DNA of 64,000 nucleotides from positions 62,001 through 126,000 of the forward strand of contig NZ_LQXM01000028.1 of assembly GCF_001648555.1 (NCBI RefSeq), written 5' to 3'. Each line of letters begins with the position of its first letter. The first letter of the stretch is position 1. The notes below the pieces were generated by a model. That model searched no databases. It was not told the origin of the DNA and worked only from the letters and a program-made list of their open reading frames with translations. Positions 23,632 to 54,624 of this stretch are shown here, piece after piece. Made by a program: the position numbers and the translations under genes. The DNA comes from Rossellomorea aquimaris TF-12. GTDB taxonomy: Bacteria > Bacillota > Bacilli > Bacillales > Bacillaceae_B.

Positions 23632-24948
23632 TTATAAAATAATTGCTGCAATCCAACCGAAAAGAATCAATGGAATATTGTAGTGTAGAAATGTTGGTAC
23701 ACATGTATCCCAAATATGATTGTGCTGGCCGTCAGCATTTAACCCAGCTGTCGGTCCAAGGGTACTATCAGAAGCCGGAGAACCAGCGTCACCTAGAGCT
23801 CCTGCTGTTCCAACAATAGCAATGGTAGCCAATGGACTAAAGCCTAACTCCATTGCCAGTGGTACGAATATAGCTGCAATAATCGGAATGGTGGCAAAAG
23901 AAGATCCGATTCCCATTGTAACAAGTAGACCAACAATTAACATAATCAGAGCAGCTAATGCCTGGTTGCCACCGATAGCATCTGCAGTTGCTTCAACTAA
24001 TGTTTCAACATCACCTGTTGCTTTGACAACCTCAGCAAACCCGGAAGCAGTAATCATAACAAATCCGATGAAGGCCATCATTTTCATACCTTCATTTAGC
24101 AGTCCATCTGCTTCTTTCCATTTAATTGAACCGGATAAGTACAATACTGAAATACCAGCTAATGCACCAAATATCATGGATTCAAGTTGAAGCTGAACAT
24201 ATAGAGCTACAACGATAGAAACCAGTGCAAAAATCATAGCTCTTTTATTGTAGACAACTTTTTCTTCTGCTACTACTTCTTCTGCTTCTTTATAATCTCT
24301 AGGTTTACGGTAGCTTACAAACACAGCAATAAGCAACCCGATCACCATTCCCCCTACTGGAAGAAGCATGGCTTTTGGAATATCACTTAATGTAATCTCC
24401 ATTCCACTGCTCGCCATGTTCTGAGCAATAATTTCATGGAACTGTAAACCAAATCCAACTGGTAACAGAATATAAGGCGCTGTTAGACCAAATGTAATCA
24501 CCGCAGCTATTAAACGGCGATCAATCTTTAACTCCGTCATCACTTTTAATAAAGGAGGAATTAAGATTGGAATAAAAGCAATATGAATAGGAATAACATT
24601 TTGAGAAAAACAAGCCATAATTAATATAGAAAGAACAATAAGTGCTTTAGAAAGGGCTGTTTTTCTTGTTTCTCCTTCTTTCCCTACAACTTTTAAAACC
24701 CACTCAACAAGTAGATTTGGAATTCCTGTATAGGAAATCGCAACAGCGAATCCACCTAATAATGCATAACTTAAGGCAATATTAGCTCCTCCGCTAATTC
24801 CTTCAGAAAACACGGATATGGTTTCATCTAACCCTAATCCACCTGTTAATCCTCCGACTAACGCTCCAGTAATCAAGGCGAAAACGACATTGACACGTAC
24901 TAAGCTTAAAATAAGCATGACGAGAACGGCAATAATAACGGCATTCAT
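23632..24948 (-). CDS. yuiF: Na+/H+ antiporter-family transporter YuiF
   Basis: Polytopic membrane protein of 438 residues with about 11 helices from the ion-transporter superfamily that includes NhaC. Conserved parts include [20 protein letters not shown] and [20 protein letters not shown], a re-entrant-loop type motif near the C-terminus. In B. subtilis YuiF is annotated as a putative amino-acid transporter beside pepA, as here, so peptide-derived amino-acid movement is possible; Na+/H+ exchange is the alternative. The start is the ATG at 24948, eight bases after AAGGAG. Confidence 0.8.
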
Positions 24949-25214
24949 TTCTTTCACTCCTTCTAGATGTATATGAATTCTACACTTACTTTAGTTCGCT
25001 AAATTGGTAGAGTAATAAAATCACGTTTTCAACTTTAACAAGATAAAGAGACTCTGTCAATACTTTAGTCTGATAAATCGATAAAATATTTGTTGGTAGG
25101 TTTTGGTGTTGGGATAACGTGTTTTCTTTTGGCAGAGGTTGAGGAGGATGCATGGGGTTATTTTACTGGTAACAAGTATGGGATTATAATTCGAAATGGT
25201 AGTAAATGGTAAAT
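24949..25214. other. Intergenic region upstream of yuiF
   Basis: AT-rich DNA that must hold the yuiF promoter; no clear box, riboswitch or gene is visible. Confidence 0.4.
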
Positions 25215-49960: not shown

Positions 49961-51487
49961 TTAGCTTACCTCCTTATAGCTTTCAGCATCCGTTTTTGCA
50001 TGCCAGCGTTTAAAGGTAAAGGCTACACCGGCGATAATTGCGAAGGCTGCAACAAACCACCCACTGTATAGAATAAAGGCATCTGAATAGCCTCCATAGT
50101 TACCTGTTTCCGTTTCAAATTCTTTTAAAAGGTTCATTTTGAATAAACCGAACATCATCCAACCTAGAACGATTGGTGTGATAACACCTAAGCATATCTT
50201 CCACCAAGATCCAAGTTGAATATCTGAAACACCATTTGCATGTTCTTCAAATGGTTTTAGCTTACGTAAGAACCACGCAATGACAACTACTTCAACTAAT
50301 CCAACAAAGGCAATACCAAATTGGTTAATGAAATAATCCGCCACATCTAAGAATAATAATCCGCCTTGAGTTGCGAATAAAATAGAGATGACTGCTGATA
50401 ATCCTCCACCAAATAGAACGGCTTTTGTACGAGTGATACCAAATTTCTCTGATACACCTGCTACATACGTCTCTGTGATTGAAATAAGTGAAGACAACCC
50501 AGCTAACACTAGAGACGCAAAGAATAAGAATCCAAATAGACCATTGAGTGCTGGAAATTCGTTAATGATTTGTGGGAATACGACGAATGCAAGCCCCACT
50601 CCTCCACTTACAACATCTTGAACTGCTACACCTTGAGATTGAGCCATGAAACCTAATGCAGCAAACACTCCAATACCAGCAAGTAATTCAAAACCTGAGT
50701 TACTAAAACCAGTAATAAAGGCATTATTCGTAATATCTGACTTCTTAGGCAGATAACTAGAATACGTAATCATAATCGCAAAAGCGATGGATAAACTGAA
50801 GAAAATTTGACCATATGCTGCAACCCAAACACTTGGATCGGCAATTTTACTGAAATCCGGTTTAAAGAATGCATCTAGTCCTTCAAATGCTCCCGGTAAT
50901 GTTAAAGCACGAACGACAATAATTAAGAATAATACTACTAATGCGGGAATAAATATCTTGTTCGCTACTTCGATTCCTTTCTTTACACCTTTGAATAGAA
51001 TGCCTAATGTAATGATCCAAACTAATAATAATGGAATAAATACTCCTGGAACGATACTACCTGTTTGACCAGGATTAACAGAAAGCTTTAAATACTCACC
51101 GAATAAGAATCCTTCTGTATCAGTACCCCAGCTTAGGTTAAAGGCAAACACACTGTATGACATTGCCCAAGCTATAATGACAGCGTAATAGGTCGATATG
51201 ACAAAGGAAATAATAACTTGCCACCAACCCAGCCATTCTGTCTTTTTGTTAAGACGGAAATAAGATAAAGGCGCTGAACCACGATACTTATGTCCTAACG
51301 TGAATTCTAATACTAATAATGGAATACCTGCGGTTAAAAGAGCAAATAAATAAGGAATAAAGAATGCTCCTCCACCATTTTCATACGCTACAGCTGGAAA
51401 ACGCCAAATGTTTCCTAAACCGATCGCTGACCCGACCGCAGCTAAAATAAATCCTGCTCGTGTACCAAACTGGGCACGATTCTCCAT
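49961..51487 (-). CDS. metP: MetP-type sodium-dependent amino-acid transporter (NSS family)
   Basis: A 508-residue LeuT-fold transporter with 12 hydrophobic segments, the MetP type of the NSS family that uses Na+ to take up methionine or alanine. The first helix has the classic GSAIGLGNIWRFPAVAYENG, and its length and last helices are longer than in the 442-residue NSS protein at 1553. A MetS small subunit follows immediately, which supports this subtype. The precise substrate is inferred. GGGGGG precedes the ATG. The upstream region shows no riboswitch. Confidence 0.87.
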   Translation of the reverse strand: MENRAQFGTRAGFILAAVGSAIGLGNIWRFPAVAYENGGGAFFIPYLFALLTAGIPLLVLEFTLGHKYRGSAPLSYFRLNKKTEWLGWWQVIISFVISTYYAVIIAWAMSYSVFAFNLSWGTDTEGFLFGEYLKLSVNPGQTGSIVPGVFIPLLLVWIITLGILFKGVKKGIEVANKIFIPALVVLFLIIVVRALTLPGAFEGLDAFFKPDFSKIADPSVWVAAYGQIFFSLSIAFAIMITYSSYLPKKSDITNNAFITGFSNSGFELLAGIGVFAALGFMAQSQGVAVQDVVSGGVGLAFVVFPQIINEFPALNGLFGFLFFASLVLAGLSSLISITETYVAGVSEKFGITRTKAVLFGGGLSAVISILFATQGGLLFLDVADYFINQFGIAFVGLVEVVVIAWFLRKLKPFEEHANGVSDIQLGSWWKICLGVITPIVLGWMMFGLFKMNLLKEFETETGNYGGYSDAFILYSGWFVAAFAIIAGVAFTFKRWHAKTDAESYKEVS

Positions 51488-51867
51488 ATGGTTCCCCCCT
51501 AGTTCTTTCCAACTACCAATTAAAAGGTAATTGAAATTTTTATATTTTCAGATTATTCACAACCTAAAGTCAGTATAGCTAGTTCTAGGACAATTGTCAA
51601 AGCTTTATTTCTTCTTTTCAAAGAGAATTTCAGAGCAAAAATAGTACTATATCACTATAATGGATTTTGTGTCCATGAAAACATTTTTGAAGGGGTATTT
51701 TTCGTATCATTTATCCAGGCCCTTACTTACTATTAATTGAAGAAAGGAGTTGTTGATTTACACTCCATGTGATCTCCCCCTCTCCCTCCAGTACACACTT
51801 GTTGATAGAGACATTAACATAACTCATATTAAAACAGTGTTTACGAAAACACCCATATTCTAAAAAG
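51488..51867. other. Intergenic region upstream of metP
   Basis: AT-rich region that must contain the metP promoter. I searched by eye for SAM, T-box and lysine-type elements because of the neighbouring transporter and found none, and no small gene with a convincing ribosome binding site. Confidence 0.45.
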
Positions 51868-51871
51868 CAAA

Positions 51872-51908
51872 AAAACCAGAAGTGAATGACTCTTTCACTT
51901 CTGGTTTT
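51872..51908 (-). terminator. Terminator of the lysine-riboswitch gene
   Basis: Perfect 15-base arms AAAACCAGAAGTGAA / TTCACTTCTGGTTTT with a seven-base loop and A tract on the left. Confidence 0.9.
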
Positions 51909-51917
51909 ACTATCAAT

Positions 51918-53477
51918 TTATTCTGTAATTGTTTCTTCTTTATTGCCAAATAGGAAAGCATATGCCAGGATTAACACGATTACAACGGCTAATCCAAATA
52001 ACGTGCTTCCAGTGAAACCAAGAACAAGGTACCCAATCGAAGCAGCAACCGCTCCAATTAACGCGTAAGGCAGCTGTGTGATTACGTGATCGATATGATT
52101 ACTTCCTGCTCCCGTTGAGGATAGAATCGTTGTATCTGAAATAGGGGAACAATGATCTCCCAGTACAGATCCAGCTAAAACCGCCGCCATAGATGGAAGT
52201 AAAATACTCACATCCGTTGCAGCTGCAATTTCTCCTGCGATTGGAAGTAGGATTCCGAAAGATCCCCAAGACGTTCCTGTTGAGAAGGCCATAACTCCAG
52301 CTACTAAGAATAAGATGACCGGCAGTGCTCCCATAGGCAGACTGGACTGTTCAACTAAACCTGCTAAGTATGTTCCAGTTTGAAGCTGATCAATCAAAGT
52401 AACGATTGTCCATGCAAATATTAAAATATAGACAGCTGGCAGCATTGATTTGATTCCTTCAACTACTGCAACCCCAACTGCTTTTCCTTCAATTCCGTTT
52501 AAGATAACTTGGCGTAGGAAGAAGATAAGGGCAACGACAAGACCAAATAATCCACCATATAATAATGATTTTGTAACATCTGTATTTTCAAAAACAGGTA
52601 GTAAATTAAATTCACCTACTGCTTGATAACCTGTAAATAGCATCATACCAACCGTTCCAATTACTAGAGCTATAATAGGCCAAGCAAGATCTCCTACTGT
52701 CCCTTTTGAACTTACAGGTAAATCGTTCTTCAGTTCACCAGGAATATCTTTTTGAGGATCATATAGATCACCTGTTTTTAAAGCTCGGTCTTCGTGTTCT
52801 TTCATTTTACCGAAGTCTAGACCTTTCCACGCTACCATGACAACAAGTAAGATAGCTGCCCATACATATAGGTTCATTGGTATCATTTGAATGAACGCTG
52901 AGAATGCTGTGTATTCTGTAATGTTGTGGGCTGCAAGAATTGTTCCAATAATTCCAATAATATATGCTCCCCAACTAGACACGGGAGAAACAACACAAAT
53001 TGGTGCTGAAGTTGAATCAATAATGTATGCTAATTTTGCACGGGAAATTTTGTGACGATCTGTAATGGGACGAGAAACTTGTCCAACGGCAAGGGCGTTA
53101 AAATAATCATCAATAAAAATGATAATACCTAATACGGCCGCTAAAAGCTGTGCACCCTTTCTTGTCTTCACACGTTTCATTGCCCATTCACCGAATGCAC
53201 GGCTACCGCCTGAAATATTCACAAATGCTGTGATGACACCAAGAATGAGTAAGAAAAAGATAATGTATACATTCCACGTGTTTAAGGCTCCGTCTGAGAC
53301 AAAAATGCCTTTAAAGGCGTCCCACATAAAGCTAAATGTTTTTGTAATTGAGAAATCTGCTAAAAGAAATGCAGAAGCGACAATTCCAACTCCTAATGAG
53401 AGTAGAACCCGTCTTGTGAGAATAACCATAAGAATGGCTAAAAGGGGTGGTAATAATGAGTAAATCGTGTTTTCCAT
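51918..53477 (-). CDS. NhaC-superfamily transporter, probable lysine transporter (LysW type)
   Basis: Polytopic membrane protein of 519 residues with about 12-13 helices in the NhaC ion-transporter superfamily. Key stretches are IIIFIDDYFNALAVGQVSRP, SAPICVVSPVSSWGAYIIG and GSVLGDHCSPISDTTILSS, which is the re-entrant-loop type signature. The leader contains a lysine riboswitch with an intrinsic terminator, so expression should fall when lysine is plentiful. That makes lysine uptake (the predicted LysW role) more likely than plain Na+/H+ exchange. AGGAGGAGG precedes the ATG. Substrate is inferred from regulation only. Confidence 0.82.
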   Translation of the reverse strand: MENTIYSLLPPLLAILMVILTRRVLLSLGVGIVASAFLLADFSITKTFSFMWDAFKGIFVSDGALNTWNVYIIFFLLILGVITAFVNISGGSRAFGEWAMKRVKTRKGAQLLAAVLGIIIFIDDYFNALAVGQVSRPITDRHKISRAKLAYIIDSTSAPICVVSPVSSWGAYIIGIIGTILAAHNITEYTAFSAFIQMIPMNLYVWAAILLVVMVAWKGLDFGKMKEHEDRALKTGDLYDPQKDIPGELKNDLPVSSKGTVGDLAWPIIALVIGTVGMMLFTGYQAVGEFNLLPVFENTDVTKSLLYGGLFGLVVALIFFLRQVILNGIEGKAVGVAVVEGIKSMLPAVYILIFAWTIVTLIDQLQTGTYLAGLVEQSSLPMGALPVILFLVAGVMAFSTGTSWGSFGILLPIAGEIAAATDVSILLPSMAAVLAGSVLGDHCSPISDTTILSSTGAGSNHIDHVITQLPYALIGAVAASIGYLVLGFTGSTLFGLAVVIVLILAYAFLFGNKEETITE

Positions 53478-53534
53478 AGTGTCCTCCTCCTATTTGATAG
53501 GGGGGAACCATCGTAGCATGACAGAGGATATAAT

Positions 53535-53572
53535 AAAAAAAGGTAAAGATAGAGAATCCTATCATTACCTTT
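53535..53572 (-). terminator. Riboswitch expression-platform terminator
   Basis: On the minus strand AAAGGTAATGATAG pairs with CTATCTTTACCTTT (one mismatch) and is followed by U7. It sits between the lysine aptamer and the transporter start, 57 bases upstream of the ATG. Confidence 0.82.
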
Positions 53573-53587
53573 ATTAGTAATGTAAGT

Positions 53588-53793
53588 GCTCCATCACGAT
53601 CTGTAGCTCCCCATTATAGAGATTTCCCTATAATGACAGTGTTATCCTTATTTAAGATAACCCCAGCAAATATACTTTTGACAAGTTATATTTACTTCGG
53701 CAAAAGTTCCCTTTCGTCTGTTTTCTACGTTGTCATCCTCAAACAGCTTACTTTTGAACTCTGCGCCTCTACCCCATCGGACTGATGATGTGG
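53588..53793 (-). promoter_or_regulatory. Lysine (L-box) riboswitch aptamer
   Basis: Read on the minus strand the leader shows the L-box blocks in order: GGGGTAGAGGCGCAGAGTTC, then AAAGTAAGC, AAAGGGAACTTTTGCCGAAG, ATTTGCTGG, TGTCA and GGGGAGCTAC, closed by a P1 stem CATCA...CGAT / ATCG...TGATG. These match the conserved core of the lysC leader of B. subtilis. Bound lysine is expected to favour the downstream terminator and shut off the transporter gene. Confidence 0.87.
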
Positions 53794-53859
53794 TGTTTTA
53801 TCAAATTTTCCTTTTCTAATATAACAAACTATCAATCTTTTGACAACTTTTTTATTCGA

Positions 53860-54624
53860 TTAATTAGTAGGAAGCTGAATCGACGTTCCTCCTCCATCCC
53901 CACCATTGTTGAAAAATTGTGGAACATCCAGATGAACCGTATCCATTGCCACTAAAATATCTTGAGTGATCGTTTCGGTTTTGGTAGCAAATGGAATAAT
54001 AATTTGCACATTTACTTCAAGATGTATATACACTTTTACCAGGGCATTATTAATTCCAAAAGGCTCTACCGTATGTTTAATATCTGAACGAACATTTCCG
54101 ATAGAGTGAAACCGTACAGGAACTCTCGGACCTAAGTTCCCTAGTAATGCATTGTTTGTTGCTTGACCTAACGGGACAGAATATACAATGCCTTTTGACG
54201 CTTTCGACTCTTCTTCATCAATTTCTACATCCGTAATAAATTCTAAATTCTCAATATTTCCTTCTTCTGCTTCTCTAAGATTTAATTGTACCAGGTTCGT
54301 GATTTCTCCCAGTACCCGATTAATTTTCTGAGTATTAAAGCGAAGCGAAACGACATTCCCTTCTGAATCTTTTACTTCCTCTGTTATTTCTTCTAAATCA
54401 AGATTACCAGAAACTTTTTTATTAATGGCTTTGTTGATAACCGTTGTCCCAATTGTACTCGTTTGGGTTTCAGCATAGGATAGCAGCGTTGGTTTTAGCC
54501 CTCTATTAATAATCCATAACCCGAAGCCTGTGGATATCATAAAAAAGACAAAGGTGATAATGATGACATATCGAAAAGGTAACGGTCCTCCTCTTCGGGG
54601 TTTGTATGTTTTAAAAGTAGACAA
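53860..54624 (-). CDS. yunB: Sporulation protein YunB
   Basis: A 254-residue membrane-anchored protein with a cytoplasmic basic start (KTYKPRRGGPLPF), one helix at about 19-38, and a large external domain with AETQTSTIGTTVINKAINKK and later VPVRFHSIGNVRSDIKHTVE. It is YunB of sporulating bacilli, needed for normal sporulation; the biochemical role is unknown. The start is TTG 54624 behind AAGGGGGG. That ribosome binding site is inside a predicted hairpin, so translation may be regulated. It follows the HD-GYP gene after 59 bases. Confidence 0.85.
   Translation of the reverse strand: MSTFKTYKPRRGGPLPFRYVIIITFVFFMISTGFGLWIINRGLKPTLLSYAETQTSTIGTTVINKAINKKVSGNLDLEEITEEVKDSEGNVVSLRFNTQKINRVLGEITNLVQLNLREAEEGNIENLEFITDVEIDEEESKASKGIVYSVPLGQATNNALLGNLGPRVPVRFHSIGNVRSDIKHTVEPFGINNALVKVYIHLEVNVQIIIPFATKTETITQDILVAMDTVHLDVPQFFNNGGDGGGTSIQLPTN

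Follow-up and report, generated by a model that had tools for sequence, protein, structure and literature searches.

Transporters named LysW were reportedly predicted behind lysine riboswitches by Rodionov in 2003. Passages of a later survey cover LysW behind such riboswitches (PMC5584792), and part of another article lists LysW for C. difficile, citing Rodionov 2003 and stating its function as unknown (PMC11477304). A passage of PMC545781 gives Desulfovibrio LysW as a gene without a riboswitch and with a predicted lysine-regulator site. Sections of two further papers concern the wider NhaC family: a pair of genes in Exiguobacterium lies behind SAM and lysine riboswitches (PMC5399880), and a transporter behind tyrosine T-boxes, annotated by its leader RNA, shares its transporter family with LysW but differs in its T-box leader and in the amino acid, tyrosine (PMC2494555).

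The window analyzed here, a stretch of 64,000 nucleotides from Rossellomorea aquimaris TF-12, contains a locus of the LysW kind. Its PF03553 protein is encoded directly downstream of a lysine riboswitch and falls in a clade shared with the lysW genera named in passages of PMC5584792, as expected of LysW (COG1757), and the same arrangement is seen for CD1655 of C. difficile in the part of PMC11477304 concerned. Nothing essential sets the locus apart from LysW; what the leaders of the Rossellomorea group add is an extension of P1 and, opposite the Shine-Dalgarno sequence, a C-run that is conserved. Since LysW behind lysine riboswitches has already been published, the window pair is a further member of a known arrangement. 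The NhaC-family methionine transporter MetT is alike in that its gene, also of PF03553, follows a riboswitch that responds to a related compound, with L008 as the example in the same genome, but unlike LysW it lies on a distant branch and has a SAM riboswitch.

A Complete Lysine Riboswitch Precedes lysW

When the full 64-kb window was compared by cmscan with 4227 Rfam families, one match exceeded the threshold: RF00168 (Lysine), at 53779–53596 on the minus strand. The match is complete, covering model positions 1–182 of 182 with 118.8 bits (E = 4e-31) against a gathering score of 30 bits, and the identity of this element as a lysine riboswitch aptamer (L-box) is certain. A sequence-only reading of the window had recognized the L-box in the minus-strand leader of the gene at 51918–53477, and the covariance model agrees with it at high significance. 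The riboswitch stands immediately upstream of lysW, with 118 bases between the aptamer and the start of the open reading frame. Farther upstream lies a sigma-70-type promoter-like site (53846–53818, minus strand; TTGTCA-17-TATATT with TG ahead of the second hexamer; 10/12 in a consensus scan), which is mostly kept across the aligned leaders; transcription probably starts near 53811. The span originally proposed for the element, 53535–53793, holds good in that it contains the aptamer and the terminator, but it leaves the promoter-like site and the Shine-Dalgarno region outside.

Competing Strands in the Putative Expression Platform

The putative expression platform was followed in an alignment (A3) of 30 leaders, comprising the window leader, 28 congener leaders and a single leader from a different family in the same order; a near-copy (L016) and L045 were excluded. 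The P1 stem reported from sequence inspection is real. Its 5′ strand, with an outward extension (53787–53769, minus strand; CAUCA, CGAU, GUAG), pairs with the 3′ strand in 27–30 of the 30 leaders, counted pair by pair, and according to folding and the aligned leaders the 3′ strand (53607–53589) continues into GAUGGAG, the 5′ strand of an antiterminator. Flanking AUCA bases on the 5′ side are able to extend P1 into this GAUGGAG strand in 27/30 leaders. The antiterminator (53595–53548, minus strand) consists of an outer helix, GAUGGAG (53595–53589) with CUCUAUC (53554–53548), and an inner helix, CAUUAC with GUAAUG; the outer helix can pair in all 30 leaders, with a one-sided change in four.

The downstream intrinsic terminator of the earlier reading was likewise found, as a hairpin (53572–53539, minus strand; −13.6 kcal/mol) with a U-run ending at 53535. 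Its A+U-rich stem is formed by AAAGGTAATGATAG and CTATCTTTACCTTT. A simple terminator consensus scan of 51500–54500 did not list this hairpin, its sole listed site being 51908–51872. The core of the stem is retained in 30/30 leaders; G-C gives way to A-U at one pair in four leaders and at a second pair in a single leader, and seven of the 30 have lost a closing A-U pair.

Extended P1, antiterminator and terminator have strands in common. In free folds taken just before completion of the terminator, the antiterminator is present in 21 leaders and absent in nine. When the extended P1 is enforced, at most four of the seven antiterminator pairs remain in each of the 27 leaders having the extension, and all seven are kept in the three that lack it; enforcing P1 yields the terminator in 29/30. 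In 28/30 leaders, folding up to the end of the U-run without constraint, and without P1, already favors the terminator, so that enforcing P1 alters the outcome in few of them; either the choice has to be made during transcription, or the folding energies are too rough. When its 5′ end is lengthened, the window leader folds best with the antiterminator (−76.3 kcal/mol versus −72.1 kcal/mol for extended P1 plus terminator), and the trimmed leader gives the terminator fold, likewise at −76.3 kcal/mol; the two states are nearly equal in energy. The arrangement fits a transcriptional OFF switch whose decision falls during transcription, folding energies alone not being decisive.

Directly past the terminator, CUCUGUCAUG at 53526–53517 is similar to CUCUAUC and would be able to pair with the GUGAUGGAG strand as well. 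It is conserved in the genus and not in L044.

Closer to the gene, a CCCCCC stretch lies opposite the AGGAGGAGG Shine-Dalgarno sequence (53509–53483, minus strand), and the GGGGAG strand at P1 is an alternative partner for it. The Shine-Dalgarno sequence is paired in 30/30 local folds, with z-scores against shuffled sequences of only +0.6 to −2.1, and its accessibility is greater without P1 in 19/30 leaders. These folds hint that there might be a second, translational layer of control through Shine-Dalgarno pairing.

On the 3′ side, a terminator (51908–51872, minus strand; 15-pair stem and T-run, from the consensus scan) follows lysW directly, and lysW is therefore probably the only gene under the riboswitch. 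The next gene (49961–51487, minus strand) belongs to the sodium:neurotransmitter symporter family (PF00209) and has its own promoter-like site at 51600–51572. Among the 30 loci L014–L043, 25 have an open frame on the same strand after lysW.

LysW Is a PF03553 Protein Scoring below the NhaC Cut-off

The gene lysW (51918–53477, minus strand) encodes a 519-residue membrane transporter, predicted to carry lysine, that belongs to the PF03553/NhaC superfamily (253.8 bits) and has a multi-helix model. Superfamily membership is what it has in common with NhaC; against the NhaC equivalog TIGR00931 it scores 34.4 bits where the cut-off is 370, and against ArcD (NF052307) 23.6 bits where the cut-off is 650. 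Its best NCBIfam match is Tet(35) (NF000013), at 357.5 bits and below the cut-off of 750. By the TIGR00931 score the protein is not NhaC proper.

An AlphaFold2 model built from 45 sequences (mean pLDDT 90.5, pTM 0.89) has a fold that we take to be that of the ion-transporter superfamily. Its best structural match is MleN (9a59 chain A, an integrative model), with Z 24.0 over 409 residues at an rmsd of 3.7, but at only 13% identity. NaS1, NaDC3, Pho90 and INDY follow with best Z values of 20.2–22.5, and ArsB and TRAP transporters appear at Z 14.1–17.4. MleN, NaS1, NaDC3, Pho90 and INDY are substrate carriers, MleN carrying malate and lactate. The predicted fold would suit a substrate carrier, while naming no substrate. 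Searched by sequence against solved structures, the protein query gave no match and the family profile gave only two (E 0.1). A near-identity search of a plasmid collection with the gene and its leader gave no match.

Riboswitch-Led Relatives Form a Clade across Phyla

Relatives of the protein occur in 61 of 249 genomes of the phylum (E ≤ 1e-30), and a lysine riboswitch occurs in at least 148 of the 249. An Rfam test found the riboswitch at 11/29 phylum loci, which are the best protein matches and not a random draw (L061 was kept separate and served as outgroup in the tree), and at 17/20 and 11/20 loci in two further sets; riboswitch-free relatives exist at 46–48% identity. The figure of 19 of 26 for places hand-picked from the phylum protein matches, compared among the riboswitch matches listed, is not a rate. 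Remaining loci were labeled with a nucleotide riboswitch profile, which agreed with Rfam on 52/52 positives and 28/28 negatives; it was built from 17 sequences, 15 of which are among the 52 calibration positives. The profile's count of 156 of 187 family loci includes the same gene under two loci and consists mostly of close relatives.

A tree of 123 rows was obtained after near-copies had been dropped from the 187 family loci and seven paralogues added; it was made by a quick method under one model, with long-branch warnings for L003, L005, L006, L008, L207, L107 and L213. The window gene falls in a clade of 90 rows (SH-aLRT 100) that has members from Bacillaceae, Caryophanaceae, Exiguobacterium, Pasteurellaceae, Neisseria, Aeromonas, Shewanella and Vibrio. 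In this clade 76 rows are riboswitch-led, 66 of them plus ten Tet(35) rows that are riboswitch-led as well, and 14 are without a riboswitch. The gene thus groups with riboswitch-led genes from other phyla and apart from PF03553 paralogues, four of which from its own genome (L003, L005, L006 and L008) stand outside the clade on long branches; more distant branches hold riboswitch-led genes as well. The riboswitch label needs 19 changes on the tree, and gain and loss are therefore common. No other Rfam riboswitch was found in any of the 14 riboswitch-free clade rows (L106, L107, L122, L128, L157 and nine others), and a tRNA lies near two of these loci.

The grouping upholds the LysW assignment that the sequence-only reading had made for an NhaC-like protein behind an L-box, a prediction of the same kind being already published. 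Judged by protein and leader sequence, the gene is better named a LysW-type predicted lysine transporter than NhaC, and its annotation can be taken as settled in that form.

Another PF03553 gene of the window, at 23632–24957 on the minus strand (441 residues), is the best PF03553 match of the genome. No Rfam match lies near it (locus L012), and among NCBIfam models it matches DcuC alone, with 27 bits where the cut-off is 100.

Lysine Riboswitch Loci Opened in the Genus Point to Lysine Supply

The gene is present in 35/36 genomes of the genus group, the one miss being an 84%-complete genome. Three lysine riboswitches per genome were counted in 28 of the 36, two in seven, including the present genome, and one in a single genome. 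The two riboswitches of the R. aquimaris genome precede lysW and an aspartate kinase gene, the family of which was confirmed. Four congener riboswitch loci, opened from six fetched, precede lysA twice (505 bits for the downstream genes, cut-off 298), an aspartate kinase gene once and an amino-acid ABC transporter once. With riboswitches in front of lysW, aspartate kinase, lysA and ABC transporter genes, the regulon looks like one of lysine supply.

Loss of lysA was considered as the cause of the missing third riboswitch and rejected, lysA being present as two equal-score matches on two contigs. These two copies stand on contigs C2 and C4 (L249 and L250), and the assembly is listed with 9.56% contamination. 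No lysine riboswitch lies before lysA in this genome, whereas two congeners have one there. The distant PF03553 paralogue L008, on contig C22, lies behind a SAM riboswitch (1094–1198, 88.6 bits) and is a probable methionine transporter.

Substrate and Direction of Transport

We consider it probable that the leader is an OFF switch sensing lysine and that the LysW-type transporter under its control acts as a secondary importer of lysine or a close analogue. At low lysine, the GAUGGAG strand after P1 would pair with CUCUAUC, the terminator would be blocked and lysW would be transcribed. With lysine bound to the leader, P1 would close, extend outward and take up part of GAUGGAG, freeing the terminator so that transcription stops; the OFF direction would follow from this closing of P1 by bound lysine. 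LysW, as a secondary importer that is probably cation-coupled, would then bring lysine or a close analogue into a cell lacking lysine.

A true Na+/H+ antiporter serving pH control could also be placed under such a switch, turned off at high lysine when lysine decarboxylase would consume protons; the idea comes from a passage of PMC11477304, which leaves a true Na+/H+ antiporter role possible. The family name and PF03553 membership would suit it, as would two genes of the Orn/Lys/Arg decarboxylase family (PF01276) above cut-off in the genome, but the protein falls far short of the NhaC model and the riboswitch elsewhere precedes lysine-supply genes in the loci opened. PF03553/NhaC-family genes are moreover found behind a SAM riboswitch in the same genome and, in the passage cited above, behind tyrosine T-boxes (PMC2494555), which points to amino-acid substrates. 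We regard the antiporter as unlikely.

Export of lysine or of a toxic analogue, or exchange of lysine for another solute, seems more doubtful still: the distant match to the ArcD antiporter and the MleN-like fold could be read in its favor, but an exporter would be needed at high lysine, and an OFF switch suits import. We consider it highly improbable that tetracycline efflux of the Tet(35) type is the dedicated function of the protein. Tet(35) is its best NCBIfam match, and a passage of PMC11596458 reports tet35 in all Shouchella clausii strains; against this, the score lies well under the cut-off, the gene is under lysine riboswitch control and its near-universal presence in the genus is that of a housekeeping gene. 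A degenerate, non-functional aptamer remnant, such as the 14 clade rows without an aptamer might bring to mind, is scarcely credible given the full-length match, the retention of the leader in the genus and the two terminator pairs at which both bases are exchanged.

Tet(35) of Vibrio within the LysW Clade

Unexpectedly, Tet(35), an entry of resistance catalogues for tetracycline efflux, is nested in the LysW clade of the tree. The Tet(35) model NF000013 has 369 positions. In two Vibrio LysW proteins of 533 residues, model positions 1–369 align to residues 165–533 (801.7 and 836.8 bits), so that Tet(35), which shares the clade with the window gene and has the same riboswitch in the Vibrio genes tested above cut-off, differs in that its model spans the last 369 of 533 residues only. 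Position 1 of the model is an internal methionine, residue 165, in 9/9 loci checked. In the window protein, residues 1–159, which precede the Tet(35) start, would according to its structural model hold the first seven helices and a conserved F-I-D-D-Y-F segment, and a product of 369 residues would therefore be without a large part of the transporter. A late start or a partial clone is likely to underlie the Tet(35) catalogue entry.

Of 148 genomes sampled from the genus of Vibrio sp. PID17_43 (G287), 145 contain the gene (E ≤ 1e-100), and 22 pass the Tet(35) cut-off. A lysine riboswitch stands in front of all 22 (L133 and L129 being the genes of L195 and L196); in each the nucleotide profile places it upstream on the same strand. 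Seven loci slightly below the cut-off have the riboswitch in seven of seven cases. One of the 22 genes, that of G401, has a stop codon within the matched stretch. The protein of L129 reaches 753.8 bits at full length against the cut-off of 750, and its 509-residue version 721.

On balance we favor the interpretation that Tet(35) is the core, riboswitch-controlled LysW of Vibrio rather than a dedicated drug pump, with a model that starts at an internal methionine without the first 164 residues. Reported tetracycline phenotypes would then be a side effect of overproducing the transporter or part of it, and many Vibrio ‘tet(35)’ calls would be housekeeping genes. The cataloguing of Vibrio Tet(35) as a tetracycline-resistance pump needs re-examination. 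If Vibrio tet35 genes are indeed riboswitch-controlled amino-acid transporters present in 145/148 sampled genomes, finding them is a poor guide to tetracycline resistance, and the question of the LysW substrate becomes testable in a harmless Vibrio.

The comparison joins two literatures that are not linked in the papers found, one on the genomics of lysine riboswitches, where lysW belongs, and one on the surveillance of resistance, where tet(35) does. No link between Tet(35) and the lysine riboswitch was found in the open-licence papers searched, where the bracketed spelling tet(35) is not searchable; in the passages concerned, PMC9741282 mentions tet35 and a riboswitch as matters unrelated to each other, and PMC5061826 is unrelated to the link. 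Passages of PMC6484505 describe V. parahaemolyticus genomes that carry tet35, and passages of PMC5584792 describe hypothetical transporters behind riboswitches in that species and in V. campbellii, which may be the same genes.

The riboswitch-led gene of Vibrio adjoins the histidine operon leader RF00514 at 11/20, 16/20 and 7/20 loci in three sets, the last count representing all seven Vibrio loci of its set. The loci concerned are L126, L127, L129–L134, L136, L140, L188 and most of L215–L241.
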